NCBI GenBank assembly: GCA_963575745.1
Contig: CAUYUJ010022563.1
Span: 41,001-105,000 of the forward strand
DNA length: 64,000 bases
From: Prorocentrum cordatum
Lineage: Eukaryota > Sar > Dinophyceae > Prorocentrales > Prorocentraceae
Reading direction: 5' to 3'
Below, one piece after another: positions 21,672 through 59,444 of the stretch (position 1 is its first letter; each line of letters starts with the position of its first letter). The notes under the pieces were generated by a model. It saw only the letters and a program-made list of their open reading frames with translations. It had not been told where the DNA came from and did no database searches. The translations under genes were made by a program, and so were the position numbers.

Positions 21672-21674
21672 GAA

Positions 21675-21784: not shown

Positions 21785-21866
21785 ATGCACGCAGGTGGGG
21801 CCGGGCAGCTGCGCGAAGCGAAATGCTTTTGCAACAGCAGGAACACCCAATGCACGCAAGAGTTTT

Positions 21867-23468
21867 TCACTCGCCTGCCCCGGACGACTCTGAGTGCTCA
21901 ACCAGAAACTCGGCCTCAGCTACCGAGCCCCGCGCTTTGGCGGAAGTATACGCAAACGCAGTAAGCCCTCGCCAACCGCCTGAGTAGAACAGTGCTGTTG
22001 GACCGTTAGCACGAAGGCACTCCGTGGCCCAACCTCTACGAAAGGCATGCGTGCCCCACGCCACCGCATCAGCGAAGCCGCAGCCTTGAGCAGCGAGCTT
22101 AAGCACAGCAAGGCTCATCGCGTATGTCATGCCTGGGAAAATGACATTATTCCCAGCTTCAGCCTGCGGCGCCGTGTCTGTAGACGCAGAAGCCGCGGCA
22201 CCACTCGCGAGCTTGGCCCGGAGCTTGTACCGGGCGACCACCCGGCATACACCACACAGTGCCTTCCCTTGGAGATCACAAACGCACCTGCGAGTGACAA
22301 CGACAGGTTCAGAATAGCACTTTCTATTCATGAATGTGATGTCCACGACATTCCGCCCTTCCACAGTCACACTGATCGACACGGGAGCTGTGTCGGAGCC
22401 CAGCTGCAAGACTTCGCCGTAGCGCAAACAAAACTGCCGCGCCACTACGAAAGACTCACCGATGTCAATGAAGCCGTTCCCGGAACACCACCGTGACAAT
22501 TCTTTTGTCTGCTCTGCAGAGGCACGGATCTTCGGCCGCCGCAGCGCCCGCCCTGCCTTCTCAGCTCCCCGCACAACACGTGCTGTGTCCGCAAGGGGGC
22601 CCACAGAACAGTGCAACCAGACTAAGACAGTGCGAATGTGCGACAAATATCTTGACAAAGTAGCCGCACTCCTGAAGAGACAAACGTACGCATCCAATAT
22701 ACCCTGTGTTGGTGGCCATGGCGGGACCCTGCAGAAGAGAACGACTTGGCCATAGAGTCTCAGTGCCGAGGCATAACCTGCAGCGCTGGCCTTCCATCCG
22801 CAAAATTCCAACCACATCGCCTGCTCCGCCATCGCTGTTGGGGCAGTGCCATCGCGCGAGATACGTGCGATCTCCTGCCGCGGTGCTCCGGGGGGACTGT
22901 GCAATGCCAGAGCGTCTGCTTGTGCCATGGCAGCAATAGCGTCGGCAAGGACGTGCGGCGCAGGGAGCCGGCCAGACGTCCGCGCCGCAGTGCATAGCCG
23001 CAACGCCGCCCTCGCCACAGCTTGTTCCTCGGGCGTGGAACCTGCCTTTCGCCGCGCCATGGCCGGAAGCAGAGCTGCCTGGCGCACCTGTGGCGACTGC
23101 GGACACTGTGCAGGCGAAGCGATTTCCTTTGCCACACTTTGACCACAGGATTTACACAAATCCAAGAAGGAGCTGACGACAGCAAGAGACACTCTCGAGA
23201 ACGCGCCCCACACCTCAACAGCTTCCTCGGGCGTGATGCCCAAGAAATCAGATGGCGCCACGGCCCCTTCCTGCCGGAGATTTGCCTCCACCGTGCGTAC
23301 ATCCACCGGGACATCCGCGATGCCCGCCGCGCGCCTGAGCAGCTGCGTCAAGACAGTCTCGGGTGTATCTTGCGGAGCCGGTTCGGGCAGTCTCGGCCGC
23401 ACTTGCCGGGCAGCATCGCCGCCGGCCAAGGCAGCCCGCTCCCGACTGCCGGCAATGAACTCAAGCAT
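21867..23468 (-). CDS. tyrosine recombinase of element A
   Basis: This is the integrase of the element, expected to insert a circular DNA copy at a short homologous core. Start: the ATG opening MLEFIAGSRE is preferred because B (MALRFIDKSRA) and C (MLHFIGQSRA) begin alike; an ATG 20 codons upstream directly follows a TGA. Numbering from that upstream ATG, the signatures are Arg369 in CLRYGEVL, Lys403 in NRKCYSEP, His494 and Arg497 in GTHAFRRGW, Trp519, and Tyr527 in GLTAFAY. A C-x-C-x7-C-G-x-C cluster (415-428) lies between Lys and His. It is in the same frame as pol but behind three stops (TAG, TGA, TGA), so it is probably translated separately. Confidence 0.9.
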   Translation of the reverse strand: MLEFIAGSRERAALAGGDAARQVRPRLPEPAPQDTPETVLTQLLRRAAGIADVPVDVRTVEANLRQEGAVAPSDFLGITPEEAVEVWGAFSRVSLAVVSSFLDLCKSCGQSVAKEIASPAQCPQSPQVRQAALLPAMARRKAGSTPEEQAVARAALRLCTAARTSGRLPAPHVLADAIAAMAQADALALHSPPGAPRQEIARISRDGTAPTAMAEQAMWLEFCGWKASAAGYASALRLYGQVVLFCRVPPWPPTQGILDAYVCLFRSAATLSRYLSHIRTVLVWLHCSVGPLADTARVVRGAEKAGRALRRPKIRASAEQTKELSRWCSGNGFIDIGESFVVARQFCLRYGEVLQLGSDTAPVSISVTVEGRNVVDITFMNRKCYSEPVVVTRRCVCDLQGKALCGVCRVVARYKLRAKLASGAAASASTDTAPQAEAGNNVIFPGMTYAMSLAVLKLAAQGCGFADAVAWGTHAFRRGWATECLRANGPTALFYSGGWRGLTAFAYTSAKARGSVAEAEFLVEHSESSGAGE

Positions 23469-23582
23469 TGAGCCAAACCGGCTACTGATGACGAGAGTCC
23501 AAACGCAAACATTGCTACAAACCCGCATTCAGCCACTCTTGGCCGCAATGGCCTCAGATGATGCATTTTTTTTTCAACAGCA

Positions 23583-25709
23583 CTACGGTGACCAAGGCAG
23601 TGCGGACGGCCATGCCCACTCGAGCTGACGGAATCCGCGGGACTGAAAAGCCAAGACAGAATCGTCCCAAGTTTCTTGCCGAGTCGGGCCGTCAGCAATA
23701 TTTAACTTGCTAGGCACTCGGAAAGCGTGCAAAAGCATGCACGCGCTGGCTACTTCAAACCAGAAACCGGTGATCACATCATTTAAGTCACTTTGCCGGC
23801 TCGCTCCGCGAACCAGCGCGTGCAAGGCTGGATTGCAATCGACGAACATGATTATCTCACACTCAGCGAGCCCATGCTCGATCAGACAGCGCACAGCACA
23901 AATCGCAGCAACGAGTTCCCAAAGCACTATCTGCGTCCGGCGCGCGTGCGCCCACGCCCACGCCTCCTGGGGCACCCTGGTGGCCCCCCAGGCGCGGAAA
24001 GCGGGATGCACAATCGCAAAAGCTATGTGGCCATCCCCTGCGGCATCCGTATAAACGACACACCTGGGCAGAGATAGCGGCTGGAGCGATACCCGGCGCG
24101 TGGGGACGCTGCCTAGGAACCGGCACCACCATTGCAGTGCTGTGCGGACTCTAGAAGTGAGCGTCCCCGAGGACCTGTGGGCTTGCCAATGCAGCGCTGC
24201 CAAATATGCACGAGCCCCCTTGCCGAAGACAACGCTGCCTGCCCAGCTCAGCCGCCCTGCCAGCCGCTTCGCTTCGGAAGGGCGCAGGACATTCTCGCTG
24301 AGTGCACGCGTGATAACAGCCAGCCACTTCTCTCTCTTATGCTTTCCAACGCAGAAAATGAAAGCACCTGGCACAGAGCTTACTTCCACGCCGAGCATGG
24401 TAGCCGCAGTGACGTTGTGCACACGTTTCTTCGGCTCGAGTTCCCAGCCGGTCAGCTGGAGCATCTGCTGCGCACACGCCGCGGTGCCCGCTGGCCCCGT
24501 GAGCGCCCTATGTGCCCCCTGGGCGCGGTCCGCCGAAAATAAATCATCAACGAACCGAGGATACGCAATGTACAATTCTCGCGCCAGGAGCGCCTGCAGA
24601 AACGAGCCCAATCTATGCCAACTATATACAGAAGCTCGCGACCCGAATGGGCAACATAGCAACTGTAAACCTTTGCCGGACAAAGCGGCGCTTTGCCAAG
24701 TCACAACTGCAAAAGGCAAGTGCTGAGACAGGAGCGGGAGCGATTTGAATGCACCCTTAAAGTCCTCTTTCCTGAACCGGAACTCGCAATCTGCAGGCTG
24801 GCCACGGGCAAGCCGCACAGCCAAGGACACCAATGTATCCAGCGTATCCACTGGCATTGGCTCGCCAACAGCTGTCGCCGAATTCACAAGCGAGGCAGTG
24901 AAATCATCAATCAATCGCACTTTCGGGCACACACTACCCCGCTCATCTTCCTTCCACCCCTCCAGGGCAGGAAAGCGTGCAGAAATGATAGACGCTGCCG
25001 TGTTCAGCCGCGTCCACCATGCTTTCTTCTCTCCTACCTCTTGTACACACTTTGCTTCAAAGGCTTCCTCCACCATCGGGTGCGCGCCGGTCGGCCTGCG
25101 CGCCCTGTGCAACGTAGCAACGTTGTGCTCCTCACAATGGCGGAACAGAAACTCAGGAGTGAACGACAGCTGCGGGAAAGGCACTGGCGGCAAAATGCCC
25201 GAGCGCGGCAATTCCCCTATCAACGGAAAACCAAATTTCAGATGCTCAATGAGCAACTGGTCTGGCCACTCGATCGCCTCCAGCATTTCGGCCACGAGAA
25301 ACAAATTCTTATCCAGCCCGAGCACGCACTGGCAGTGCGCTGGCAATCGCGATACTGCCCGCCGCCACGCAGGGTCTGTCACACGTTTCCTATCAGCCCA
25401 ATACTGGAGCTTGCTCGCACGATGTTCGTGCAATTCAGAATCCGTTAAAGATTCTGCCCGCTCCAACGCCTCAACTATTATTGCTGGCATTGCCGCGGGC
25501 CCTTCAAAGGCTGGCAAAGTACAGGCCCATTCAAGATGATCCCACGCACACATGGACTCAAGCAAAACTGAATCGGCCAACAGCGCGCTGACAGCCTCGC
25601 TCAAAGTGGCAAACCCACCAAGCGCACGCTGCCGCCCACTATCTTCGCTTAGAACACTTGTACCGGTACTGCTTGCGTCGTCCTCGGACGCAGGCTTCTC
25701 TGGCGAAGC
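23583..25709 (-). CDS. reverse transcriptase-RNase H of element A (same frame as gag)
   Basis: The frame is open from the codon after the gag TGA. Numbering from the TTG at 25604: RT fingers VRLIDDFTAS (229-238), motif A RKEDFKGAF (Asp281), motif B CCPFGSRASVYSW (318-329), motif C YPRFVDDLF (Asp353, Asp354), then thumb. RNase H follows: Asp520 in VVYTDAAG, Glu563 in LWELVAA, Asp589 in FVDCNPAL, Asp638 in NIADGPTR. All catalytic residues are present and there is no internal stop. There is no methyltransferase or protease domain. The role is copying element RNA and removing it from the hybrid. It ends with TAG. The first in-frame ATG is at codon 18, just before the conserved DHLEWACTLP block. 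Confidence 0.9.
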   Translation of the reverse strand, partial: ASPEKPASEDDASSTGTSVLSEDSGRQRALGGFATLSEAVSALLADSVLLESMCAWDHLEWACTLPAFEGPAAMPAIIVEALERAESLTDSELHEHRASKLQYWADRKRVTDPAWRRAVSRLPAHCQCVLGLDKNLFLVAEMLEAIEWPDQLLIEHLKFGFPLIGELPRSGILPPVPFPQLSFTPEFLFRHCEEHNVATLHRARRPTGAHPMVEEAFEAKCVQEVGEKKAWWTRLNTAASIISARFPALEGWKEDERGSVCPKVRLIDDFTASLVNSATAVGEPMPVDTLDTLVSLAVRLARGQPADCEFRFRKEDFKGAFKSLPLLSQHLPFAVVTWQSAALSGKGLQLLCCPFGSRASVYSWHRLGSFLQALLARELYIAYPRFVDDLFSADRAQGAHRALTGPAGTAACAQQMLQLTGWELEPKKRVHNVTAATMLGVEVSSVPGAFIFCVGKHKREKWLAVITRALSENVLRPSEAKRLAGRLSWAGSVVFGKGARAYLAALHWQAHRSSGTLTSRVRTALQWWCRFLGSVPTRRVSLQPLSLPRCVVYTDAAGDGHIAFAIVHPAFRAWGATRVPQEAWAWAHARRTQIVLWELVAAICAVRCLIEHGLAECEIIMFVDCNPALHALVRGASRQSDLNDVITGFWFEVASACMLLHAFRVPSKLNIADGPTRQETWDDSVLAFQSRGFRQLEWAWPSALPWSP

Positions 25710-27182
25710 TCACTTCTTCTTCCCGTCGTACCACCCCTGCTGATACCAGCCATCCTTCCTGGTGTTACGACTCCTGGAACGGCCGCGCTGGCTGGGAGGC
25801 TTCCTCGGCGGCGAACGCACGGGCCGGTTATCGCCCTTGCCACTCTTGCCGCCCTTGCCGACAGCCTTACCGCCGCTGCCACGACCGTGATGCCCAGCCG
25901 CGCTCTGAGCAGACGACCCCGCTGCAGCAGCTGATGCGAATTTCGCAACCCTGCCAGCGCCAGACTGCGCTTTATCTTTTGCTGCCCTGGCCGTGTCGTC
26001 GTTCAGCTCGAGGAGCCAGCGCAGCACGTTGGGCTTCTCACGCTCCAGTTCCGTGGCCATCTCTTTCCGCACCTTGACGTCATAGTGGTACGCTGTGGCC
26101 ACACCACCATGCTCCTCCGCCACCCGGGTGAGGATGAAGACATACGACAGGAGGTGCGTCTGAGAGCAAACCTTCATCATGACGAGCTTGAGGCCCCACG
26201 AGAACACATGCCCCAGGAACGTGGCGAAGCCCTGGTAGTGCACCCGCTCTTCCAAGGAGCGCGCCTTCTTCATGTCGAGCGCGGCTTTGAGCCGATCATC
26301 CCAACTGCCGCCGCTCGGCATCAAATCGATTGCTGGCGACCTCGTCCACGCTGGCCGGTGCAATGCCATCAGGTCATCTGCGTCTGCACTGCCGACGTAG
26401 ACGCGGCCCTTTTCTGCAGCTATCTTTCCGGCCGCTTCCCACTTGGCCAGAAGATCCTCTGATGGCAGAGCTTCTGGTGGGAACTCTGATAGGCCTACGT
26501 CTTCGATCCTCTTGGCGTAATTGAAAGACAACCCTTTGGGTTTAGTTGTCTGCTTCTCTTTCTCGGCCTGACACTTTACGAACTCTGTGAGAGCATCCTT
26601 CAAACCGTTGTCGCCCAGTTGCCCATCTTTAGAGCCTTGTGCCACCTCCATTCCCGCTGATTTCGCGAAAGCAGCCTGGACACGCAAGGCGAACACAACC
26701 ATGGCCGGAGTCATCTTGAGAGTCTTCCAACTCTCCGGATTGCCTTCTTCATTGAATGGCGTGTCGCCAGCTTTGAAGTTGGCCTTGATCACGTCGCGGA
26801 CGTAGTCGTCCGCGTAATCTTCCGGTTGCGTGCTGCACACCACGTCGGCGAGCAGCCGCCCGACGCCCGTGTAGAAGCGCAGGTCATGCTTCCCACGAGC
26901 TTGGGGCTCCACGTCCAAGACCGTTTCCATCCACTGGACGCGGACATCCATCTCAGTCTTGTTGAACGCGCTAGCCGGCAGACCAGCGAGGTCCGCGCGG
27001 ATCTCTTCAGGGGCGACCCACGCCACGAGGCCCACCCCGCGGTGCCAGCAGACACCCACGGGCAGGACGAGGACGTCCCAGGGAGACGACGGACAGACAG
27101 ACCGACAGACAGACGACAGACCGACAGACACACAGACAGGACGGACGGACAGACAGACCCACACCCGCCGTCCGCAGGACAC
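25710..27182 (-). CDS. Gag-like protein of element A
   Basis: This would be the structural protein of the element's ribonucleoprotein particle. It aligns with the element B Gag from PEEIRADLAGLPASAFN (near 27010) to the tail. Shared signatures are AEEHGGVATAYHYDV and DNRPVRSP, the latter in a basic, Ser/Arg-rich C-terminus (about the last 110 residues) likely to bind RNA. There is no CCHC knuckle. The codons before about 27013 are translation of the GACA-rich A1 repeat and probably not protein. No ATG precedes the conserved N-terminus in this frame, so initiation (non-AUG, or splicing from another A1 frame such as the ATG at 27223) is unresolved. It ends with AAG AAG AAG TGA (25712-25710), and the frame continues into pol. 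Confidence 0.75.
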   Translation of the reverse strand: MSCGRRVWVCLSVRPVCVSVGLSSVCRSVCPSSPWDVLVLPVGVCWHRGVGLVAWVAPEEIRADLAGLPASAFNKTEMDVRVQWMETVLDVEPQARGKHDLRFYTGVGRLLADVVCSTQPEDYADDYVRDVIKANFKAGDTPFNEEGNPESWKTLKMTPAMVVFALRVQAAFAKSAGMEVAQGSKDGQLGDNGLKDALTEFVKCQAEKEKQTTKPKGLSFNYAKRIEDVGLSEFPPEALPSEDLLAKWEAAGKIAAEKGRVYVGSADADDLMALHRPAWTRSPAIDLMPSGGSWDDRLKAALDMKKARSLEERVHYQGFATFLGHVFSWGLKLVMMKVCSQTHLLSYVFILTRVAEEHGGVATAYHYDVKVRKEMATELEREKPNVLRWLLELNDDTARAAKDKAQSGAGRVAKFASAAAAGSSAQSAAGHHGRGSGGKAVGKGGKSGKGDNRPVRSPPRKPPSQRGRSRSRNTRKDGWYQQGWYDGKKK

Positions 27183-27353
27183 GGCGCGTTAGCTGACCCA
27201 CCAGGGCGGGTGAAGTCCGCCACCCCCAGTTGGAGGTATCCAAGCTTCGTGCGTTCTGCTAGGAGCTCAAGGCCATTAGGCTAGGAGGAGCGTGGCACCG
27301 CTAGCTCCTGAAATTTTCCTGCCCTCCAAACCGCTGCGCGATTTGAGGGCTAA
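27016..27353 (-). repeat. element A repeat A1 (5' terminus)
   Basis: 338 bp, matching 21334-21671. It contains a GACA/GACG tandem stretch (27080-27165). Its inner edge coincides with the start of conserved gag sequence, so it acts as the 5' leader. Confidence 0.95.
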
Positions 27354-28469
27354 GAAATGCCAGGTCCTGCAACACTCGCAGATGCCATTTTGGTTTTGGC
27401 CAAAATTGACGGGGATGTGTTTCCGCTGCCCTCTTCTTCGCCAAGGCAAGAGCTGACTCGCAGCCGCCATATTGTCGACTTGGAGGCCATGCGCGAGCAG
27501 GCTGTGTGGCTCGAATTTTGCGGGTGGCGCGCCAGTGCGCGAGGCTACTCTTCTGCAGTGCGGTTGTACGGCCAGGTGGCTTTGCACTCGGCATCTGCAC
27601 CTTGGCCGCCGACGACGCCCGTGGTTGACGCATATATCAGTTTATTTCGGAGTGCAGGGACCTTGGCGCGATACTTGTCCCACCTCCGCACTGTGCTGCA
27701 TTGGATGCGTTTCCCTTTGGGCGCCCTGGCAGATACGGCCCGGGTCGTCCGTGGCGCTGAAAAGGCAGGCCGGTCGTTCAGACGGCCTCGCGTTCGTGCC
27801 ACCGCTGCTGAGACCAAAGCTCTGTCCACGTGGTGCTCGGCGTTCGGCCTGCCCGACGTTGGGGCGTCCTGGGTCGTGGCGCGTCATTTCTGTTTACGGT
27901 ATGGCGAGGTTCTCCAGATTGGATCGGTGACAGCGCCAGTCTGCCTCGCCGCGGCGGCTGGTACGCGCAAGGAGGTGTCCATCACTTTCACCAACAGGAA
28001 ATGCTACAGCGAGCCCGTGCAAGTGGTTCGGAGGTGCATATGCGCCCTCCAGGGTAAAGCGCTTTGTGGAGTATGTGTGCTTGTTTCTCGCCACAGCTGT
28101 CATTCCGGAGCGCTGTTTCCTGGCCTGACATATTCGGAAAGCCTTGCCACGCTGAAGGTGGCGGCTCAGGCGTGCGGCATAGAAAACGCCATGTTCTGGG
28201 GAACGCATGCTTTTCGCCGAGGTTGGGCGACGGATTGTTTGCAGGCGAACGGCCCCACTGCCTTGTTTTATTCTGGTGGGTGGCGCGGGCTCACCGCGTT
28301 CGCGTACGCCTCGGCCAGGGCGCGGGGGAACGTGGCGGCAGCAGAGTTCTTAGTTGAACACTCAGATTCGTCGGACGCTGCCGAGTAAAAATGCTCCTGC
28401 TTGCATGGGGGGGCACAGGTACCAGTAGCAAACCGCTTCGCGCAGCTGTCCGGACCCACCTGGGTGCAG

Positions 28470-30484: not shown

Positions 30485-30519
30485 TCGTGGGTTCGGGCCC
30501 CACGGTGGGTGTAAAAACG

Positions 30520-32330
30520 CCCAAAATGACAATTGGAGCGGGATTCCGCGCACTCGCAGGCGCGCCCAGAATCGTCAATGGAGCGCGACTCCGCGCATTC
30601 TGGCGCGGGCGCGCCCAGAATCGCAAATGGAGCGCGACTCCGCGCATTCTGGCACAGGCGCGCCCAGAATCGCAAACGGAGCGCGAGTTTGCGCATTCTG
30701 GCGCAGGCGCGACCAGAATCGCAAGTGGAGCGCGGCTTCGCACATTCTTGCGCAGGCCCGCCTAGAATCGCACATGGAGTGAGCGTGCAGGGCGCCCAGA
30801 ATGAGAACTAGAGCGCGAACCCGCGCATTCGGGCGCAGACGCGCCCGGAATCGCCAATAGAGCGCGGCTCCGCGCATTCTGGCGCAGGCGCGCCCAGAAT
30901 CGCAGATGGAGCGAGACTCCGCGCATCCTAGCGCAGGCGCGACCAGAAGCGAACCGAGCGCGACTCCGCGCATTCTGGCGCGGGCGCGCCCAGAATCGCA
31001 AATGGAGCGCGACTCCACGCATTCTGTCGCAGGCGCCTCCAGAATCGCAAGCATTCTGGCGCAGGCGCGCCCAGAATTGCGACTAAGCGCGACTCCGCGC
31101 ATTCTTGCGCGGGCACCCAGATTCACACATGGAGTGGACTCAGCGCGTTCGGGCGCAGGTGCGCCCAGAATCGCAAAAGTAACGCGAATTCGCGCGTTCC
31201 GGCGCAGGCGCGCCCGAAAGCGCAAATGAGGCCCGAATCAACGCATTGTGGCGCAGGTGCGAGAAGAATCGCAAGTGGAGTCCGAATCCGCGCATGTCTG
31301 CGCAGGCGCGCCCAGAATGACAACTGGAGCGCGATTCTGCATTCTCTGGCGCAGGCGCGCCTAGAAGCGCAAACGGGCGCGACTGCGTATTCTCTGGCGC
31401 GCGCGCGCCGAAAAGCGCAAATACAGCGCGACTCCGCGCAGTCAATCGCAGACGAAGCGCGAACCCGCGCATTCTGCGCAGGCGCGTCCAGAGTCGCAAA
31501 TTGAATGCTAATCCGTGCATTCTTGCGCAGGCGCGCCCAGAATGACAACTGAAGCGCGATTCCGTGCATTCTGGCGCAGGCGCGCTCAGAATGGAGCGCG
31601 AGTCCGAGTATTCTGGCGCAGGTACGACCAGAATCGCAAACCGAGCGTGACTCCGTGCATTCTGGCGCAGGCGCGCCCAGAATCGCAAACGGAGCGCGAG
31701 TCCGCGCATTTTGGCGCAGGCGCGCGCAGATTCGCAAATGGAGCGCGAATCCGCGCACTCTGGCAGGCGCGCCCAGAATTGCAACTAAGCGCGACTCCGC
31801 GCATTCTGGCGCCAAGATTGTCATTCCAAGTGCGTTTCTGCGCTCGGCGGCGCAGGAGGCGGCCCAAATCGTTTTCGGGGCGAGTTTGCCAAATCTTCGG
31901 CGCGGGGCGCCCGCAGTGGTATTCAGAGCGCAGTTCTGCGCTCAGCGGCGATGGTGCGCCCAGAATTGCGATTGCACGCGATTCAGCGGTTGCCTGCGTT
32001 ACAAGACGCCGCACCCTTAGATTGGCATCAATGAATGCAGTTTTCGCGCCTTCGCGGCGCAGGTGCGCCCGAAATCGCAGTTCGAGTCTTATATTCTGCG
32101 GCGCGGAGCGCCCAGATTAGCATTTTGAGCGCGTCTCCGAGCTCTTCCGCGCTCGGTGGCGCAGGTGCGCCCAGAATTGCAATTCGGACGCATTCCGCGG
32201 TTTCGTGCAGTCTCCAGCGCGAGATGCCCACATAGATAAGCATTTGGAGCGCAATTCCGCGCTCGGCGGCGCTGGTGCGCCCAGAATTGCGATGGACGCG
32301 ATTCCGCAATTGCGTGCGATGCGGGGCGCG
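30520..32330. repeat. GCGCGCCCAGAATCGCAA minisatellite (element E body)
   Basis: About 50-70 bp units, more than 20, with GCGCCCAGAATCGCAA, GGAGCGCGACTCCGCGCA and TTCTGGCGCAGGC. Long frames on both strands here are repeat translations. Units become more diverged after about 31800. Confidence 0.88.
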
Positions 32331-35715: not shown

Positions 35716-35868
35716 CTAGCACTTGCAATCTGCCATCCAATGCACGACGTTGGTGGTCCTACCCGCGCCCGTGCACTTGGTGCACGGGAGGAGGCACGGG
35801 TTCTTGAGCTCGCGGCACTTCCTCAGGGTGTGCTTCACGATGCCTTTGCCTGCCATCAAACAGTTTTT

Positions 35869-36418
35869 ATGAAGCGTAAACTCGTTTCCGGCACAGGAAA
35901 ATCATGTGGAGCAGGCTCAAGCGTGTTCGCCTCACCTCCTCTGCTCCATCTCACACGCCTCTGCGCCTGCTTCTTTTTTTTCTTTTTTGTTTTTATTTTT
36001 TTTTGTTGTTTTTTTTTTTTATTTTTAGTTTTTTTTCTTTTTTTTTTTTTTTTTTTCTCGCGGGCAAGCGGTTCATGGCGGGCCGGCTTGCGTTTTCGGA
36101 GGCGGAAGTATTCTCGGTGCTAGTCTCTTGGGTCAGCCGTTCTGGTCGCCCCACAGAGGCGGAAGTATTCTCGGTGCTAGTCTCTTGTGTCAGCCGTTCT
36201 GGTCGCCCCACAGGAGGCGCTCTCGGTCTCTGCGGGGAGCAGGGCCATGCCAGGCCAAAGCACGAGCGACGGCCTGGTGCGCTGTGGCACTGCCCGCTCC
36301 CTCGCAGGCACGTGCCTGAGAGCTTGTCGGCAGGGGCCGCCTTCTCAGGCTCTCTGACCGAACGCTCTCCGCGTGGGACGGCGCCCGCAGGGCGGGCAGC
36401 AGCCGCCTGGCGGCGGTT
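35869..36418 (+). repeat. element B repeat A1
   Basis: Matches 44686-45092 but is longer: it contains a T-rich expansion (35968-36058) and a tandem duplication of the segment GGCGGAAGTATTCTCGGTGC...CCCCACAG (starting about 36100 and 36157). Confidence 0.9.
35968..36058. repeat. T-rich tract in element B A1
   Basis: About 90 bp almost entirely T, absent from A2. Confidence 0.95.
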
Positions 36419-36829
36419 ACCGCGTGGCATGCTGCGTGCAGGTTACCTCGCTGCCTTCTCGCGGGCAAAGCCCTGTCGCGGGCACCCAGAAGTCACTTTG
36501 AGGTCGCTGCCTTCTCGCGGGCTTTACCTCGTGCGACGTGGAGGTCCCCTGCCTCCTCGCGAGCGGCAAACCCAGGTCTGTCGAGCCACGCTCTCTGGCC
36601 CTCTTCGCCAGAGGACGGGGCGTCCCGGGGCGCAGGCTCCTTGTTGGTTTCCAATGGGTGCGGTCCTCAGTGCATTTCTGATGCCGCTGAGCGCCATTCT
36701 CGCACCCCGCCGTGAGGGCTACTCTCTCGCTGGTCCTTGCCGCCTGTGGTGAAATGTAAAGTGCGTCGTTGCTCCCCCGTGGGCGCCGTGCTCTCTCTCT
36801 GGCCAGTATTGCACTCTATGCTCCTACCT

Positions 36830-37800
36830 TTTTGCGTTCTGGTGCCCAGGCGCATCCAGATTCGCAGTCTGAGCGCGACTTTGCGCTCGTGGGCGTCCGC
36901 GTGCCCAAAAATTGCATTTTGTGCTCCTTTCGGCGTTCTGGTGCCGAGGCGCACCCAGTTTTGCAGTCTGTGCGCGATTTCGCGCTCCTGGGCCCCGCGC
37001 CCACAGAATTGCATTCTGAGCTCCTTTCTGCGTTCTGGTGGCCAGGCGCACCAAAATTCGCAGTCTGAGGGCGTCCGCGTGCCAGAATTGCATTCTGAGC
37101 CTTTCGGCAGCCTGGTATCCAGGCGCACGGGGCTTTGCAATCTGAGCGTGACTTTGCGTTGTTGGGCGTCCGCGCGCCCAGAATTGCATTCTGAGCTTCT
37201 TTCTACGTTCTGGTGGCCAGGCGCACCAATATTCGCAGTCTGAAGGTTTCTGGGCATCCGCGCGCCCAGAATTGCATGCTGAGCTCCTCTCTGCGTTCTG
37301 GTGCCCAGGCGCACCCGGGCTCGCAATCTGAGCGTGACTTAGCGCTCCTGGGTGTTCGCGCGCCCAAAAAATTGCATCCTGAGCGCCTTTCTGGGTTTTT
37401 TGATTCCAGGCGCACCCACGTTTGCAATCTGAGCGCTTGTGGCGTCCGCGCGCCCAGAATTGCACTCTGTGTCCCTTCTCCGTTCTGGAGCGCAGGCGCG
37501 CCCAGATTCGCAATCTCAGCGCAGCAAAGCGCTCCTCAGGGTTCGCGCGCCCAGAATTGCATCCTGAACGCCTTTCTGCGTTCTACTGCGCTGGCGCCCT
37601 GATTCGCAAGCTTAGCGCACATTAGCGCTCGTGGGCGTCCGCGCGAAATTGCATTGTGAGTTCCCCCTTTTGCTTTCTGGTGCCCTTGCGCACCCAGATT
37701 CGCAACCTGAGTGCGACTTAGTGCTCCTGGGCGTTCGCGCGCCAGAATATCGCATTCTTAGTTCCTTTCTGCATTATGGTGCCCAGGCGCGCCAAAATGC
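36830..37800. repeat. GCGCGCCCAGAATTGCA minisatellite (element B leader)
   Basis: About nine units of 90-120 bp: GCGCCCAGAATTGCATTCTGAG, then TTCTGCGTTCTGGTGCCCAGGCGCACCCAG and GCAGTCTGAGCGCGACTT (quoted in parts). Related to the E body minisatellite through CGCGCCCAGAAT[T/C]GCA. Confidence 0.88.
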
Positions 37801-39219
37801 AGTGACCTGGCCGTCTCGACCGCGCGAGCCAGAAGCAGGGGCTACAGACACACTCTGGGGCACTCGGGGTCGGATGTGTGCAGGCGGCAGAAGCTAGTCC
37901 TTGATGGGGGAGCATTTGCTAATCCCCCACCTGCACACAACGGGGGCGGGGTGCTTTGCATTTGTGCAGCACGCCCGTCCTCGACCGACCCCGGGGGGCC
38001 TGCGTCCCAAACGGCGCGTAATCGGAATATCCATGCTGACGCCCTTTCACCAGCGAGCTCAGAATTAAATTCTGGTGTGGCTGCTGAAAATACGGCGGCT
38101 GAGATTGCAACTGGACGGATTTCCCATGGGAACTCGGCCCATCGGATTTCGGAAGATTTTCGGCCCCAAAATGGGTGCCAAAGAAGCGTGGGTCGGAAGC
38201 GCCTCAGCAAGCAGTTCCTTGGCTGCGTTTCCTGTTGCCTTAGCTCCGAGGCGAAGCTGACATTCGCGTCGTTGCAATAGCGCGCAGTCGAGCTGCGCAC
38301 GCCCTCTAGCGAGTCGCCTTGGCGGCGTTGCCCGCCAAGACGGCGCGCCTCACATAAAGAATGGGGGCACCCAGACCACCCACCAGGAAAGAAACCGTTT
38401 GGAGACGGATTCGCCTGCTACGCGGCGACGCGCAGCATTCTATCGCGAAGGGCGAGCGTAAGCCCCTTCGCGCCGCGTCCAGGCGGACGCGCTCGCCCCA
38501 AAGATGGGCGCTCACTCATCCATCTCATCATTCAAATCTGCTCTGTGTCCTCTGGCGGCGGCGGTGACAAAGTTGAATCGCGTCGGCGGCGTGGTGGCGT
38601 CAGGGGAATCCTTTCTCTGACGGCAGCCCAGCACCGTCAAGCTGCAGGGAGCCAGCGCGGCAAGGCAGGTTCTCCACCGGGGCAGCATCGCACGCAGCGC
38701 TCGGCAGGCGCGCTTATGACGCCCTCCGGAGGCCTGGGTGGTGCACTCAGGCTGCGGAGGGGATAAGCATCGCAATCAGCGCTGGCTACGTTTTGCCCCG
38801 CAGTGCAGGCCGCGCCTGAGCAGGTTGTCGTCTCTTGTCTCGTGCGTTGTGCCGCACTAGCTCAGACGAGCACGCTCAGGCAATCTGCCCTCTCACAGCT
38901 CAGACCTTGCCCAGCCTCTCACAGGTTGCTGTCGCGTGTTTTGGCGGCGGCAGCAGGCGGCGTCAGAACTGATTTTGCGAAGGGAAGTCTTTGGAGGGGC
39001 TGCCTGCCTGCATGTTTGAGGAATCGGAAATACGGTTGCTCTCACCATGCCTGAGGCCACTCTCCTCTTTGTCTCGTCGGAAGAGAGGCCAGGTATCCGC
39101 CTGCGGGGGGAGATCCTTCAGCTGTCCACTGTAACCGTGATGGCTCGGACAAGGTGTCTGAATTGCAGATTTGTGTCCTAGCACGCAGAGTAATATGATT
39201 CTTCGTCGTCCGAGGGAAG
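37800..39219 (+). other. element B leader upstream of gag
   Basis: No coding frame is supported in these 1.4 kb. It probably holds the promoter and untranslated leader of element B. I see no recognisable promoter motif. Confidence 0.4.
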
Positions 39220-40539
39220 ATGTCTTTCTCTCCGAGTGACGTCGCGGCGATGATCGCCACCGCCGCCAGTGGAGCCTTCAACGGCGCAGGTGCAGATCAG
39301 GTGCGTGAGTGGGTGGACTTCGTCATCAATGTCGACGTCGACCCCGCCAAGAAGCACGATCTCTTCCACTACGTGTCTGTCGCGCGGCTGCTGGCCGAGA
39401 CGGGAGGCAGCATCGCGCCAGCCGACTTCGAAGACCCTCACATGCGGGACATGATCAAGGCGAGCATTCCCGTTCACGCCACCCCGTATGCCACCGAACA
39501 GGACGACCCGTGGAAGAGCTGGAAAGTTTCGCCGGCACAGATTGTCTTGGCACTCAAGGTGCAGGGGGCGTGCGCGAAGAAAGCCTCGCCAGGACCATCG
39601 GTGCCACCAGAGGTGGCCCACAACAACAAAGAGCTTTCGGGCATGGCTGAAGCAGTGAAGCAATTTGCGGAACTTCAGTCGCAGGCGCTGCAGAAAGGGA
39701 AGCCGAAAGGACTCAGTTTCAAGTTGCAGGACCGGAAACTCGAGCTGGGCATGCAGCATTTCGCCAAGGATGCACTCCCGTCAGAGGAGGTCCTCGCGAA
39801 GTTCGAGGCGGCGGGGAAGATCGCGCACGACAAAGGCAGGCCGTGGGTCGGGTCCGCTGAGGGCGAGGATCTGCGCGATCACCACCGCCCAACTTGGAGC
39901 CGGACTCCTATGATCGACGCTGTCGTGGGGGACGGCTCTTACGAGGAGCGGGTGAAGCAGAGCGCTGCCGCCAAGCGGAACATGGCGTGGATGGACAAAG
40001 TCGACTACGCTGGCTTTGCCACGTTCATGGGCCACCTGCACGAGTGGGGATTCAAGGTAATCCTCACCAAGGCATGCAGCATGGCTGACTTCCTTGCGTA
40101 CGCCCACAACATCGTGCGAATCGCCGAGGAACACGGTGGAGTCAGGACAGCTTATCAATACGATGTTCTCCAGAGGAGGGCCATGGCCAGGGCTCTGGAG
40201 GAAGACGTCGTAGATTTGGCGCCTTACTTTGCCAAGATCGATCGTGAAAACCTAGCTGACGCCAAAGACAAAGTGAACAAAAGCTTCACGGAGGCTGGCC
40301 GGGCTGTGACAGCTAAGGGGCAGCAGTCGAAGGGTCAGCCCAAAGGCTGCGCCAAGGGCGTCACCGACAAGGGCGGCAAGGGGAGCAAGAAGAGTTCCGA
40401 CGGCACAGAGGCTGACAACCGGCCTGTCCGGTCGCCGGCCAAGCGCCCCAAGGGCACGGCGGGCACCGATTATCAGCACAGGTCTCGCAGCCCCCGCTCC
40501 GGCAATCAGCAGTACAACAGTTGGGGAAACAAGTGGTGA
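39220..40539 (+). CDS. Gag-like protein of element B
   Basis: 439 residues from an ATG (MSFSPSDVAAMI). It aligns over its whole length with the element A Gag: KHDLFHYVSVARLL versus KHDLRFYTGVGRLL, KGLSFKLQDRK, ALPSEEVLAKFEAAGKIA, GFATFMGHLHEWGFK, and IAEEHGGVRTAYQYDV. The last 90 residues are basic and Gly/Lys/Ser-rich (KGGKGSKK, DNRPVRSP, RSRSPRSG), suitable for RNA binding. No zinc knuckle. It should form the particle that carries element RNA. It ends AAC AAG TGG TGA (40537-40539), and the pol frame follows at once in the same frame. Confidence 0.85.
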   Translation: MSFSPSDVAAMIATAASGAFNGAGADQVREWVDFVINVDVDPAKKHDLFHYVSVARLLAETGGSIAPADFEDPHMRDMIKASIPVHATPYATEQDDPWKSWKVSPAQIVLALKVQGACAKKASPGPSVPPEVAHNNKELSGMAEAVKQFAELQSQALQKGKPKGLSFKLQDRKLELGMQHFAKDALPSEEVLAKFEAAGKIAHDKGRPWVGSAEGEDLRDHHRPTWSRTPMIDAVVGDGSYEERVKQSAAAKRNMAWMDKVDYAGFATFMGHLHEWGFKVILTKACSMADFLAYAHNIVRIAEEHGGVRTAYQYDVLQRRAMARALEEDVVDLAPYFAKIDRENLADAKDKVNKSFTEAGRAVTAKGQQSKGQPKGCAKGVTDKGGKGSKKSSDGTEADNRPVRSPAKRPKGTAGTDYQHRSRSPRSGNQQYNSWGNKW

Positions 40540-42690
40540 GTGGGCCAAGCACCACTAGTCGAGGGCGCCGGGAGTGATATCTCGGAGGAAGCATCAGACG
40601 ACACGGAGGCGTCGCCGCTTCCAGGTACCAGTTCAAGGTCAAGTGAGTCAGCAAATTCTCCACTCGAAGCTGTCCAGGCAGCTTTCTCTGCATTTAGCGC
40701 CCGCGAGGATTTGCATAGCCTGGGTCCGAGCGACCACTTGCGCTGGGCCAGCGGCTTGCCAGAAGCCGACGATAGCCCGCGCGTGCCAACATTTTTAAAC
40801 GGCCATTTTGCGAGATCGGTTTCAATGTCGGTTGCCGAGCTGCAAACCGCTCGCCAGTCTGCTCTTGCTTTTTGGAAGCATCGGAAGCTAGTGACGGACC
40901 CACAGTGGCAGACTATCTTTAGAAGTTTGCCAGCTCACTGTCAGTCAGTGCTGGGTCCGGAGAAGAACCTTCTGCTGCTGAAAGAGATGCTCGAGGCTAT
41001 AGCATGGCCAGATAATACCTTGTTTCACAACCTCTGCCATGGCTTCCCTTTGGTGGGGCGCCTGCCTGCTAGTGGCATCCATGCGCCCGCTGCCACGTCT
41101 CCGGAACCAGCCGAGACTTTGCGGTCGCTTTTAGCACATCCGCGCGAGCGGAATGAGGCGACTCTCGGTAGAATCGCCGCGGAAAAGGGCGGCGATACGA
41201 GGGTTAGGACTCAATTTTTATCGGCCTGCTCAAAAGAGGTCGAAGATGGCAAGGCCCGCTTCCGTAACCTAGACGTAAATTCTTGTGTTTTAACAGCTCG
41301 CTTCCCTATCGTGCAGGGGGAGAGAGACGGAATGCCAAAAATTCGTTGCATAGACGATTTCACTGCGTCTGCGGTGAATGGCGCGGTTGTACATAGTGAA
41401 AGAACATGTCCAGACACGCTGGACACTTTGGTGGCATTAGTGCGCCACGCAGCAGCAGGCAAGCAACACATTGCCATGAGGTGGAGGAAAGATGACTTCC
41501 GGCACGCTTTTAAGACACTGCCGATTTGCAGCGGCCACTTGCCGCTAGCAGTGACAGCTTGGCCAGAAACAGTGGCAGACGGTAAAGCGTTACAGTTGCT
41601 GTGCCTACCATTTGGCTCTTCCGCATCAGTGTCCGGTTGGGATCGTTTCGGTCTCGCCATTCAAGGCATTTTGGCAGCTCTGTTTCACTTGTTATATTTG
41701 CGTTTTGTCGACGATATGTTCGCCGGCGATTCGGCCCTGGAGGGGCGCGATATTGGCAGTGACTGCTTAATCGGCCCCGCCGGCTCTGCGCGCCTGGCAA
41801 GAGCAGTCGTGTCAGAACTGCTGGGCTGGGATCTCGACGCCGGCAAAGCCGTCACGGAGGCCACTAAGACCGTAATCCTCGGAGTCTGCGTAGAATTTGA
41901 CGACCACAACCAGCTGATCCAGTTTTCTCTCGAAGCAGAGAGGTTGGAAAAATGGACCGCAGAAATTCGAGAGGCTCTGCGGCGAAGATCGCTCTCGCCT
42001 GCGCGGGCTTTAAAATTAGCAGGCAAATTGAGCTGGGGTGCGACCGCCGTCTTCGGCCGAGGCGCGCGCGTTTACCTTGCTGCCATTTACCACCACGGCT
42101 CAGGCAACCAGAGCCGGCTGTCCCAGCGCACCAAATTGTGTCTGCGTTGGTGGCTGCGGTTCTTACAGGAACCGCCATCGAGGAGCGTCCCGGTGATGCG
42201 TCGCCAGAAGAAGCGTTGCATCCTTTACACCGACGCCACAGGCCAGGGACGGATGGCATGGGTCATCCAGACTCCCTGTTTAAAGGCTTGCGCTGCTGCT
42301 GATGTCCCAGCAAAGGCGAGGCAGTGGGTGCTTCATCGGAAGAATCAGATCGGCACTTGGGAGCTCATGGCGGCTCTCTGCGCGCTTAAGTTTTTGCTGG
42401 GTTATCTGCCTGGCGAGTTTGAAATCCTCGCCTTCGTGGATAACACAAGCGCGCTGGGTGCACTTTTACGCGGCTGTTCCAGGCAATTTGATTGGAACGA
42501 GCTCATAGGCGAGCTTTGGTTTGCAGTCGCGCAGCGTGGTCATTATTTGCACCTTTGGCACGTGCCATCGCATTTAAATTTGGCCGACGCTCCGACCCGG
42601 CCAGAAGCCAAGTCAGAGCAGCTGCGTAAGTTAGCCGCCGACGGGTTTCAAGAAATGCCGTGGTCCTTCCCAGCCGACGCGCCCTGGTGA
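40540..42690 (+). CDS. reverse transcriptase-RNase H of element B (same frame as gag)
   Basis: 716 codons open directly after the gag TGA. Numbering from codon 40540 (GTG): conserved DHLRWASGLP (65-74), RT IRCIDDFTAS (268-277), motif A RKDDFRHAF (Asp319), motif B CLPFGSSASVSGW (355-367), motif C LRFVDDMF (Asp391, Asp392). RNase H: Asp565 in ILYTDATG, Glu608 in TWELMAAL, Asp634 in FVDNTSAL, Asp683 in NLADAPTR. The first ATG is codon 96 (40825), after the DHLxWAxxLP block that is also conserved in A. So translation must enter from gag by UGA readthrough, or start at a non-AUG codon. It ends with TGA, and a TAA follows 13 codons later. Confidence 0.92.
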   Translation: MGQAPLVEGAGSDISEEASDDTEASPLPGTSSRSSESANSPLEAVQAAFSAFSAREDLHSLGPSDHLRWASGLPEADDSPRVPTFLNGHFARSVSMSVAELQTARQSALAFWKHRKLVTDPQWQTIFRSLPAHCQSVLGPEKNLLLLKEMLEAIAWPDNTLFHNLCHGFPLVGRLPASGIHAPAATSPEPAETLRSLLAHPRERNEATLGRIAAEKGGDTRVRTQFLSACSKEVEDGKARFRNLDVNSCVLTARFPIVQGERDGMPKIRCIDDFTASAVNGAVVHSERTCPDTLDTLVALVRHAAAGKQHIAMRWRKDDFRHAFKTLPICSGHLPLAVTAWPETVADGKALQLLCLPFGSSASVSGWDRFGLAIQGILAALFHLLYLRFVDDMFAGDSALEGRDIGSDCLIGPAGSARLARAVVSELLGWDLDAGKAVTEATKTVILGVCVEFDDHNQLIQFSLEAERLEKWTAEIREALRRRSLSPARALKLAGKLSWGATAVFGRGARVYLAAIYHHGSGNQSRLSQRTKLCLRWWLRFLQEPPSRSVPVMRRQKKRCILYTDATGQGRMAWVIQTPCLKACAAADVPAKARQWVLHRKNQIGTWELMAALCALKFLLGYLPGEFEILAFVDNTSALGALLRGCSRQFDWNELIGELWFAVAQRGHYLHLWHVPSHLNLADAPTRPEAKSEQLRKLAADGFQEMPWSFPADAPW

Positions 42691-42828
42691 TTCGGAGACA
42701 GTGAGCGGCAAAGGGGAAAAACATCATCGTAATCCTGTGTTGAGGTCATATCACGTGAGAATCGGTTGTCCACGCAGCTACTTGTGCGCACATTCTCTGT
42801 GTCTTCTGTTCCGGAGCTCTGGCCCAGC

Positions 42829-44403
42829 ATGGCTTTGAGATTCATCGACAAAAGCCGTGCCGCTAAGTACTCGCATCCGCCAGCTGCCAGCGATGAGGTC
42901 GCGGAGGTCCGCGTCGAGGTGGAAGCGTCCCCTCTGGCGGCCGTCGTCCGCGGCGTCGCGGCGCAGGCAGAGCCAGGGCACCACGTCACGGGCTTGATCG
43001 CTGCGTTGACAGAATCGGGCTTCAAACACATGTCGGATCTGAGCGACATTGGAGCCGACGACTTCGCAGAGCTCGTGCCGGCATTCGCCGCTTGCAACAG
43101 CAGCTTCGTCAAAGCCTTCTTGTCGCACTGCCAGAGCAGCGCCAGTCGCGAGCAGGCAGCTCAAGCGCACAAGCCTGGCGGGCGAACGGAGCCCCAGCGC
43201 CCGGCATCTCTGGCAGCGGGCGTCGCTGCGCAGGCGGGCTCCGCCTCGGGCGGCGCCGGCGCTGGCTATGCTGGCGACCAGACGCCCACTGCGAAGCGAT
43301 TGGACGCCCCCGCCGAAGAGAAGGCCCGCGCTGCTTTTCTAGTGCTTGGAGAGGCGCGGCGGGCGCGGGCCGCTCCTGCGCCTGCAGTGCTTGCAGCCGC
43401 CGTGGCAGCTGCTGCCAATTGCAGCTGCTATCCGGGAGCGGAGCCCACTGGCAGGCCACGGGACGAGATCAAGCGGGCTCGTCGCGAAGCCAGCGGCGGC
43501 GACCATCTGAGCTTGCACACCTTGTGGGTGGAATTTGCCAGCTGGAGGAAAAGCGCCTCCCAGTATGCTTCCGCAGTGCGCCTGTGGGGCGACGCTGCCA
43601 CTGCTGTCGGGGCGCCTGGGTGGCCACCAACAGAACTGATCCTTGACACTTTCGTTGGTTTGTTTCGCAACGGCCACACCTTGCAGAGATACGTGTCGCA
43701 CGTGCGCAGTGTATTGCACTTGGTGCAGGCTCCGCTGGGCGCCCTCGCAGATACGCATAGATTGTCGAGAGGCGCCGAAAAGATAACGAAGTATGAATTC
43801 AGAAGAGAGAAAATCCGTGCCACAGCTGAGGAGACCAGACGCATCCGTAAGTGGTGCTCGGAAGCCGGATATCCGACACTAGCGGCCTCGTGGGCGATTG
43901 CCCGCCATTTTTGCTTGAGATATTCTGAAGTACTAAATCTGGGGACCCACGCGGTCGCATTTCGTTTTACCGGCGAGGGCCGTAAAACGTGCATCATCCG
44001 TTTTGCTCACCGGAAGTCGTACAATGAACCCTGCGAGACGACGAGGCGTTGCATCTGCCACCAGCAGGGTCGGCTCCTGTGCGGTGCTTGCACACTGTTC
44101 TCCTTAGGAGAAACAAGCGCTGTTCCTTTTTCAGGAATCCAATACGCCGACGCTCTCGCTGTGCTAAAGCTGGCAGCGAACGCCCTGCATCTGCGCAGCG
44201 CGCCTGCTTGGGGCACGCATGCGTTCAGGAGAGGGTTCGCAAACGAAGCCCTCCAACAAGGAGGGCCGACAGCATTGTTCTTTAGCGGTGGATGGAAAGG
44301 CGTGGCTGCTTTCGGCTATGCTAGCGCCCAGAGCCGAGGGGCTCTCTCGGCCGCTGAATGGCTAGTAGAACATTCTGACTCCAGCGACGGCGAGCAGGAC
44401 TGA
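42829..44403 (+). CDS. tyrosine recombinase of element B
   Basis: 524 residues from the ATG of MALRFIDKSRA; the frame is open 21 codons further upstream without ATG. Numbering from the upstream edge (42766): Arg385 in CLRYSEVL, Lys417 in HRKSYNEP, His485 and Arg488 in GTHAFRRGF, Trp510, Tyr518 in AAFGY. The cysteine cluster CICHQQGRLLCGAC (429-442) is between Lys and His. An Ala-rich linker (about 150-240) separates an N-terminal helical region from the core-binding domain. It is in the same frame as gag and pol but behind TGA and TAA. All catalytic residues are present, so it may be active. It would act on the T3-5C core. Confidence 0.92.
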   Translation: MALRFIDKSRAAKYSHPPAASDEVAEVRVEVEASPLAAVVRGVAAQAEPGHHVTGLIAALTESGFKHMSDLSDIGADDFAELVPAFAACNSSFVKAFLSHCQSSASREQAAQAHKPGGRTEPQRPASLAAGVAAQAGSASGGAGAGYAGDQTPTAKRLDAPAEEKARAAFLVLGEARRARAAPAPAVLAAAVAAAANCSCYPGAEPTGRPRDEIKRARREASGGDHLSLHTLWVEFASWRKSASQYASAVRLWGDAATAVGAPGWPPTELILDTFVGLFRNGHTLQRYVSHVRSVLHLVQAPLGALADTHRLSRGAEKITKYEFRREKIRATAEETRRIRKWCSEAGYPTLAASWAIARHFCLRYSEVLNLGTHAVAFRFTGEGRKTCIIRFAHRKSYNEPCETTRRCICHQQGRLLCGACTLFSLGETSAVPFSGIQYADALAVLKLAANALHLRSAPAWGTHAFRRGFANEALQQGGPTALFFSGGWKGVAAFGYASAQSRGALSAAEWLVEHSDSSDGEQD

Positions 44404-44494
44404 GTTCGCATCGTTTGCATTGGGGCAAGGGAAAACACATCACGATGTCCTCTCCTCAGGCGCTGCTGCGCGGTCCGCCGCCTCCTGGTGCATT

Positions 44495-44684
44495 GGGAAC
44501 CTCAGGACAGGGTCCAGGAGGCTCCGGCCAGGCAGCGCTTTCCTTTTGCCCCTTGCTGGCGCGAAGGCGCCGGCGCCGAGCCGTGACGGGGCCCCGGGGC
44601 CCGAGAACGTGTTCCGAGGTGCTTCGGGGCACCGCAGAGGCGAGGGCCTGCTTTCCCTTGGGCCGGGCTGCCAAAAATGATTTT
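44495..44684 (+). repeat. element B repeat B1
   Basis: 190 bp beginning GGGAACCTCAGGACAGG; identical layout at 45145-45334. Confidence 0.94.
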
Positions 44685-44685
44685 C

Positions 44686-45092
44686 ATGAAGCGTAAACTC
44701 GTTTCCGGCACAGGAAAATCATGTGGAGCAGGCCCAAGCGTGTTCGCCTCACCTCCTCTGCTCCATCTCACACGCCTCTGCGCCTGCTTCGCGGGCAAGC
44801 GGTTCCTGGCGGGCCGGCTTGCGTTTTCGGAGGCGGAAGTATTCTCGGTGCTAGTCTCTTGGGTCAGCCGTTCTGGTCGCCCCACAGGAGGCGCTCTCGG
44901 TCTCTGCGGGGAGCAGGGCCAAGCCAGGCCAAAGCACGAGCGACGGCCTGGTGCGCTGTGGCACTGCCCGCTCCCTCGCAGGCACGTGCCTGAGAGCTTG
45001 TCGGCAGGGGCCGCCTTCTCAGGCTCTCTGACCGAACGCTCTCCGCGTGGGACGGCGCCCGCAGGGCGGGCAGCAGCCGCCTGGCGGCGGTT
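44686..45092 (+). repeat. element B repeat A2
   Basis: 407 bp copy of A1 without the T-rich expansion and without the tandem duplication. Confidence 0.92.
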
Positions 45093-45144
45093 TTGCCCAC
45101 CCACATACCACCCTCGCGGCTTTCGCCGGCGCCGCGTCCTGGCA

Positions 45145-45334
45145 GGGAACCTCAGGACAGGGTCCAGGAGGCTCCGGCCAGGCAGCGCTTTCCTTTTGCC
45201 CCTTGCTGGCGCGAAGGCGCCGGCGCCGAGCCGTGACGGGGCCCCGGGGCCCGAGAACGTGTTCCGAGGTGCTTCGGGGCACCGCAGAGGCGAGGGCCTG
45301 CTTTCCCTTGGGCCGGGCTGCCAAAAATGATTTT
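45145..45334 (+). repeat. element B repeat B2 (3' terminus)
   Basis: Second copy; D2 gag codons resume after the TTTTC core. Confidence 0.94.
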
Positions 45335-46628
45335 CACACACGTGATTGCTGAAGATCGTCATCATAGCGCTGCGGTGAGCATCATCGACTTGGTACTGCC
45401 TGTCGATCCACGCTTGGAGCTTCTTGGGGGGGTTGTTGGGGATCAGCGCCGACAACTCGTTGAGGAGGTGGCTGACCAACTGCTTCCGGTCTTTGGCGGC
45501 GTCTTTGGCAGCACCGCCGCCTGCCGGGGAGGAGCCACCAGGGCCAGCACCTGAGGAACGCTGGGCTTTCGCCGCCGGCTGGCCCTCTTCCTCGAACAGC
45601 CCCTGGCCGGACGACAGCTCCGAGATGTCGAAGGACCTTTTGGTAGCCAGGCTAGTCACCAGCGCCGCCTCGCCCAAGATGAGGTCCTGGGCGAAATCGC
45701 GCAGCAGGATCTCGTGCTCCAGGGACACTGATGCGCTGGCCTTCGTGGTGCGCTTCTTGTACTGCTTGATCGTATGGTACATCAATGGGAGAAGAGCGGT
45801 CTTTTGAGAAGCCGCTTTCTCTGGGCCCGTGCGCTTGGCCGACTGCACGACTGTGCAGCGGCGCTCCGTCAAGTTGAGGAGGACAAGGAGCGACCGGGCG
45901 AGCGCCTTCACATTGTCGATCGGAGCATCCGCTTTCTCCGTAAGGTAGTTCTTCAACCGGTCCCAAGAGCCGCCTTGCTCCGGGAAACACAAGCTTTTCC
46001 ACCGCAACTTGGCGGCATAGCGCACCGTGGAAGCCCGCTTGAGCTCGGCCAACTCGGCGTTGCCTGGGTTGGCGGCGGACAGCGCCCAGATGTTAGCAAG
46101 CGCGGGAGTCTGCTCGGCAGCTTTCAAGGTGGACGCGAGGTGGTCCGCATCCACCACGAGGTCGCGCCAAGCAGCTTCCCACTCGGCGACCGAAAGCTGG
46201 CGCAGACGGGCCCTGTACGGAAAGGCCGCGTCCGCCCGCCGCTCGCACTCGGCCTGCACAGCTTTGCTCAGTTCAGAAGCCGGGTCCTTGAGAGCCGTAA
46301 CCACAGCGGGCACCGAGTGCGTGTTGGCAGCAGCAGTGGCGCCGGCTGCGATGGCGAGATCGCCGACCTCCCCTTGATTGAACGCCTTCGTGATCTCGGC
46401 AGTGATCGCTGTCATGATGGCGCCCGTCGGCTCGAGGGCGGCAGCGATGGCTGCCTGCGCCGCTGCTTCCGCCATTGTGCCGTGGGAAACACTAGGACAG
46501 AACGAAAACAGGTCGTTGCGTTGCAATTGTTATCACTAGAGGGAACCTGAAACGGCTGCGGCCGAAGAGGGCTAAGTTGGGGAACGCAGGCAAAGAACTG
46601 ACGCCGTCAGCGCCCACAAACGTACGTC

Positions 46629-58765: not shown

Positions 58766-58929
58766 CAAAAACCCAGAAACCGCCCCTGCTTTCTACATCC
58801 AGGTCACTGCGGCAGATCCGCCACCGAGCCGGCGAAGCCGTCTGGTGAGGCGGCCTCTCTCGTCTCTACCTCTCGATGGGGGCTCCTGTGGAGTTCCGTT
58901 GCTCCGCCTTCGGCTCCTCCTCCCATTCC

Positions 58930-59403: not shown

Positions 59404-59444
<41 letters not shown>

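Follow-up and report, generated by a model that had tools for sequence, protein, structure and literature searches.

An in-frame UGA between gag and pol in DIRS-like retrotransposons of Prorocentrum cordatum as a probable site of translational readthrough

The window analysed here, a stretch of 64,000 nucleotides from the dinoflagellate Prorocentrum cordatum (contig CAUYUJ010022563.1, positions 41,001 to 105,000 of the forward strand), contains a retrotransposon, element B, with a DIRS-like layout in which gag, an in-frame TGA and pol, encoding reverse transcriptase (RT) and RNase H, are followed by a separate recombinase-like open reading frame (ORF). Judging from the sequences compared, the best explanation of the junction is quite probably readthrough of the UGA, yielding a Gag-Pol protein. 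This reading, put forward in a first-pass annotation of the window, is supported by the retention of both the stop and the zero frame throughout the families of copies examined and by the translated-like evolution of the sequence that follows the stop. According to the mechanism that we propose, ribosomes would translate Gag and mostly stop at the UGA, and a minority of them would insert an amino acid at this codon, probably via a near-cognate tRNA. Those ribosomes would continue in frame through an acidic linker into the RT and RNase H domains, resulting in a small supply of Gag-Pol, and the third ORF would start independently at its own ATG.

Conservation of the TGA and of the Pol frame

As the first-pass annotation had described, the TGA that ends gag in element B is followed directly by 716 open codons in the same frame, which we located at 40540-42690 with the stop of pol included. 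A second element of the window, element A on the minus strand, shares this layout despite identities of 37% in Gag and 42% in Pol, so the layout of element B is more than chance. Further copies of the junction were drawn from the P. cordatum assembly (4.13 Gb in 21,875 contigs). A total of 171 junction loci were examined, corresponding to element A and 170 fetched loci, the latter obtained from 262 overlapping rows of which the unfetched ones were mostly partial or repeated. Of these, nine lacked a junction that could be aligned (L045, L046, L047, L050, L095, L096, L099, L100, and L101). The first 82 junctions were grouped into 18 families at 85% identity over 210 nucleotides (nt), and in a later set of 80 junctions each alignment covered 118 or more of 123 positions.

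Alignment of the genomic copies, suggested in the first-pass annotation as a check on the conservation of the TGA, revealed this codon in 158 of the 162 alignable loci (78 out of 82 in the first set and 80 out of 80 in the later one), the remaining codons being CGA in three loci and TGC in one, with neither TAA nor TAG at any of the 162 junctions. TGA was the most frequent junction codon in all 18 families, and Pol was in frame 0 in every one of them. Outcomes that would have spoken against a conserved readthrough site, namely a majority of sense codons, frameshifts or other stops, were sought in the 171 loci and were not found. The copies of the B family, all of which carry TGA (31/31), tell little on their own, since the 30 copies compared are nearly identical.

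The CGA codon apparently arose three times among the copies. Compared with their relatives, L051 and L052, two of the loci carrying it, have in common just that site and one column at the end of the alignment, and L051 is nearer to a TGA copy than to L052; in L073, the stop of Pol has likewise changed from TGA to CGA. From these alignments, CGA appears to reflect changes in individual copies. RNA editing that would make the UGA a sense codon, either CGA or UGG, was also considered as an alternative to readthrough. RNA editing has been reported in P. cordatum (PMC10666404), and the first set of junctions contained three T-to-C changes against 0.73 expected (P 0.038; expectation derived from families of at least three copies, with L056 excluded), an excess of CGA that could be taken as an editing footprint. 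This footprint was gone after the addition of the 80 further copies, all of them with TGA: three changes in 162 junctions are close to the approximately 1.8 expected from the T-to-C rate, and no TGG copy was present among these 162 junctions. Because the further 80 copies showed no CGA, we regard editing as highly improbable.

The single copy with TGC at the junction (L092, G000:C16922:75969-76718) carries a new TGA in the linker, at a position where its relatives have a Trp codon.

Evolution of the sequence following the TGA

The region between the TGA and the conserved H-motif of Pol was compared in 13 families, the H-motif being unmatched within the fetched stretch in the other five of the 18. 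Over 841 codons, this region contained no stop in the Gag frame, as compared with 20 and 40 stops in the other two frames. The linker of element B itself shows 0, 1, and 4 stops in frames 0, 1, and 2, respectively, and is thus open in frame 0 only. When 12 family pairs were aligned as nucleotides without regard to frame, the substitutions in the first 25 codons after the TGA amounted to 90/253, 96/252, and 140/251 at codon positions 1, 2, and 3, respectively, a coding-type pattern with an excess at third positions. The ratio of nonsynonymous to synonymous substitution rates (dN/dS) in the linker was 0.19-0.48 in 10 out of the 11 family pairs where it could be computed, with high dS values (up to 2.55). 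On these measures, the DNA directly after the TGA behaves as translated sequence.

These substitution patterns bear on the potential existence of an intron that removes the TGA, in which case unspliced RNA would give Gag and spliced RNA would give Gag-Pol. The stop lies within GTGA in 16 of the 18 family representatives, and within GTGAG in several of them, thus resembling a 5′ splice site. In addition, the tail of P0021, one of the 12 P. cordatum Gag gene models read, suggests a predicted intron over the stop, but this intron is out of frame with Pol. Against splicing, the stretch that would form the intron evolves as coding sequence, being open in frame and showing coding-type substitution from its first codons. 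The occurrence of Pol in frame 0 in 18 out of 18 families would also require intron lengths of 3n each time, and no aligned copy lacks the TGA region, although copies made from the cDNA of spliced RNA would lack it (the nine unalignable loci mentioned above apart). We therefore consider an intron unlikely.

Regarding the start of Pol, the first-pass annotation had pointed out that conserved sequence (DHLxWAxxLP, codons 65-74) lies before the first ATG, and this holds in element B: the sequence reads DHLRWASGLP from Pol codon 65 onwards, and no in-frame ATG is reached until codon 96. A structural model of element B Pol, in which the RT and RNase H fold spans approximately residues 136-690, has its predicted structure beginning near residue 41, upstream of that ATG. 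A Gag fusion was also sought in Pol homologues of up to 1253 amino acids (13 of the 17 listed, two more, and two fragments), and none of them carried this Gag. The exception to be noted is the distant Symbiodinium gene model P0019, which joins RT to an N-terminal part of unassigned kind. In P0014, P0015, and P0017, also distant RT relatives, the N-terminal part resembles what we take to be a cytosine-methyltransferase domain. It can be likened to the DNMT domain present in Pol of SymbioDIRS, an element from Symbiodinium (PMC5890265).

The third ORF served as a control for the fixed frame of Pol. In the seven families where its start could be placed by its motif, the third ORF lay in frame 0, 1 or 2 with respect to Pol, and its frame varied even inside one family (L083 and L090). 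A spliced-leader-like motif (16-18 matches out of 21, with a threshold of at least 16) was found immediately upstream of the third ORF's ATG in five of 16 families, a result matched by none of 2000 permuted motifs. The motif is carried by element A (23487-23467, minus strand) and, downstream of Pol, by L071, L072, L076, and L080. The control thus sets a fixed frame at the proposed readthrough site against a free one at the ORF for which a separate start is likely. The third ORF seems, from these features, to start separately, and it may descend from, or be expressed as, trans-spliced RNA. In the L053/L054 family (L053 and L083 on G000:C14888, L054 on G000:C13248), the open Pol frame extends over 1160 and 1264 codons; in L083, the stop at the conserved end of Pol is missing, as if Pol continued into the third ORF.

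Weighing of readthrough and its candidate signals

Several observations weigh against readthrough of the UGA. An ATG precedes the H-motif in eight of the 13 families compared (four codons ahead of it in five families, and further upstream in three). Several within-family dN/dS ratios are near or above 1, from few changes. Nor are the tests independent, since descent is common to the 18 families and sequences recur among the family pairs. No shared fold or stimulatory structure was detected at the junction across the 18 families in pseudoknot-free folding. The base after the TGA is G in 12 of the 18 representatives, A in five, and T in one, and never C, which is the leakiest context elsewhere. 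Finally, the use of TGA as the stop of Pol in 13 out of 16 families (TAA in one, TAG in one, and no stop at the conserved place in another) leaves specificity for UGA unproven.

The ATG codons ahead of the H-motif would be consistent with a separate start of Pol, either by reinitiation, at a non-AUG codon or at a downstream AUG, possibly on trans-spliced RNA, as the third ORF seems to do in the families with a spliced-leader-like motif. On the contrary, five of the 13 families lack any ATG ahead of the H-motif, the best match to the spliced-leader-like motif at the junction in the 18 representatives was 13 out of 21, below the threshold, and the excess of third-position substitutions is already present in the first 25 codons after the TGA. 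A separate start would not require a fixed frame either. On this evidence, separate initiation of Pol appears unlikely.

Decoding of the codon as selenocysteine, which the first-pass annotation had offered as a variant of amino acid insertion, found no positive evidence in the elements. In its favour are the identity of the codon, UGA, and two tRNA-Sec matches in the genome of the host (64.4 and 59.7 bits, with a cut-off of 47). No Rfam family, including the selenocysteine insertion sequence (SECIS), matched at E-values up to 1 in 38900-45400 (element B) or 21000-27500 (element A), a search that a diverged SECIS may escape. Copies with Arg or Cys codons at the junction exist, but they may be dead. 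We consider this decoding very unlikely.

With regard to a signal for readthrough, the first-pass annotation had placed the stop of element B in a potential hairpin. The two arms, AGTGGTG and CACCACT, are present as described, and the hairpin is unusual for element B alone (P 0.003 with Watson-Crick pairs and 0.043 with G-U pairs allowed, mononucleotide shuffles). This structure is not common to most families: stems over the TGA at P of about 0.03 or less were found in four out of 18 (L001, L068, L094, and L044), which is above chance, and their registers differ. Composition-corrected fold scores near the TGA (mean z of -0.5 to -0.7) were similar to those elsewhere (down to -0.97 at +75), and the TGA was paired less than average in the fold predictions. 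The uncorrected 40-nt folding energy indicated a rise in stability 3′ of the TGA, yet the segment at the TGA ranked 22 out of 91. The hairpin was consequently rejected as a general readthrough signal, given its restriction to four families, the differing registers and the lack of a shared fold. In murine leukaemia virus (MLV, or MuLV), readthrough involves a 3′ pseudoknot.

The residue preceding the stop follows a narrower pattern. Gag ends in W, K or R in all 18 families from P. cordatum and in 20 out of 20 environmental Gag proteins (38/38 groups), against a background of 35% for these residues in the preceding 19 positions of Gag; as the groups are related, the P value of this comparison comes out too small. 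Single copies break this rule, as two of the 80 junctions of the later set have GAG or CAG as last Gag codon. At the C-terminus of Pol, W or R is found in four of the 15 families with a stop. Based on these sequences, the W/K/R residue before the stop may be a determinant of readthrough, or it may reflect a demand of Gag itself. It is conceivable, but in our opinion doubtful, that throughout the whole clade of dinoflagellate DIRS-like elements the readthrough signal contains no RNA structure and consists of the UGA together with a last Gag codon limited to Trp, Lys or Arg. If this were true, UGA decoding in dinoflagellates would be tuned by the P-site codon or by the nascent C-terminus, and UGA would be inherently leaky in these organisms. 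Should readthrough itself hold, a single genome would contain more than 100 natural sites of it, set in 18 or more sequence contexts. The cis-signal that directs readthrough of UGA in dinoflagellates would then be open to direct testing, with the W/K/R rule before the stop as a concrete prediction.

Junctions with a stop between gag and pol are known from other systems. Tca2 of Candida albicans has, like element B, a UGA between gag and pol, for which readthrough has been proposed; unlike element B, it is a long terminal repeat element with a proposed 3′ pseudoknot, and in Saccharomyces cerevisiae its junction by itself failed to direct readthrough (PMC2194720). MLV and other gammaretroviruses also have gag and pol in one frame and produce Gag-Pol by stop codon readthrough, but the MLV stop is UAG, absent as TAG from the 162 junctions analysed here, and MLV is a retrovirus and not a tyrosine-recombinase element (PMC5778647, PMC4178896). 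In structure 5dmq, RT of Moloney murine leukaemia virus is bound to eRF1.

Among elements closer in layout, SymbioDIRS shares with elements A and B the repeat order A-coding region-B-A-B, a Pol ORF with RT, a separate tyrosine recombinase ORF (putative in elements A and B) and a dinoflagellate host, and its RT is, as here, poorly matched by Pfam. It differs from element B in the DNMT domain of its Pol, and the main text of its description contains no gag, frameshift or readthrough (PMC5890265). Ngaro of Cafeteria resembles element B in having a Gag-like ORF1, an RT/RNase H ORF2, a tyrosine recombinase ORF3 (putative in element B) and direct repeats; the main text describing it includes no frameshift, in-frame arrangement or readthrough, and its sole mention of a stop codon concerns other elements (PMC8547959). 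No Gag-Pol readthrough in tyrosine-recombinase retrotransposons or in dinoflagellates was reported in the literature searched, which lies largely outside subscription journals. Relatives of element B were not found in the viral contigs or in the other genome contigs searched, and outside P. cordatum they were seen as proteins only.

Layout of elements A and B

The features of both elements are listed in Table 1. Homologues of element B Gag comprise the Gag of element A and 45 database proteins. In the third ORF, the residues R, HxxR, and Y line up in three copies; we take them to be the tyrosine-recombinase motif, and the label given to this ORF is based on them. The third ORF had no useful match to Pfam or PDB profiles, and its structure model (pLDDT 48) was too poor for a structure search. 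Split direct repeats in the arrangement A1 ... B1-A2-B2 were found in both elements, repeat A1 of element B being interrupted and located 2.8 kb before gag. Elements A and B can be described as DIRS-like by their layout, the RT/RNase H Pol and the split repeats.

Table 1. Coordinates of the features of elements A and B in the window.
Feature	Coordinates	Strand	Remarks
Gag-like ORF, element B	39220-40536 (stop included: 40539)	+	439 amino acids; basic, W/K/R-rich tail ending in KW
In-frame TGA between Gag and Pol, element B	40537-40539	+	TGA in 158/162 aligned junctions
Linker, Pol codons 1-64, element B	40540-40731	+	Early part acidic and Ser-rich; no ATG
Pol ORF, element B	40540-42687	+	716 codons, same frame as Gag; own stop TGA 42688-42690
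Potential hairpin with TGA in 5′ arm, element B	40532-40556	+	AGTGGTG 40532-40538 / CACCACT 40550-40556
Third ORF, element B	42829-44403	+	Own ATG; tyrosine-recombinase-like by residues R, HxxR, Y
Repeat A, 5′ copy (A1), element B	35864-36418, interrupted at 35974-36057	+	Pieces 98-99% identical to 44681-45092
Repeat B, first copy (B1), element B	44495-44686	+	Identical to 45145-45336
Stretch holding 3′ copy of repeat A (A2), element B	44687-45144	+	
Repeat B, second copy (B2), element B	45145-45336	+	
Gag from its first ATG, element A	25713-26951	-	
In-frame TGA between Gag and Pol, element A	25710-25712	-	
Pol frame, element A	23586-25709	-	708 codons, then TAG
Third ORF frame, element A	21870-23528	-	ATG 23468-23466 after spliced-leader-like motif 23487-23467
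3′ repeats B1-A2-B2, element A	21177-21784	-	113-nt repeat at 21672-21784 and 21177-21289 around 21334-21675; 5′ A copy 27016-27357

Beside element A, at 19273-20328 and 27360-28385, lie pieces of another pol (43% identity to that of element B) and of another third ORF (49%), so that older related elements are nested near it. The window also contains diverged tandem-repeat arrays at 30518-31812, 36803-37803, and 58902-61449, one of which sits between repeat A1 and gag of element B.

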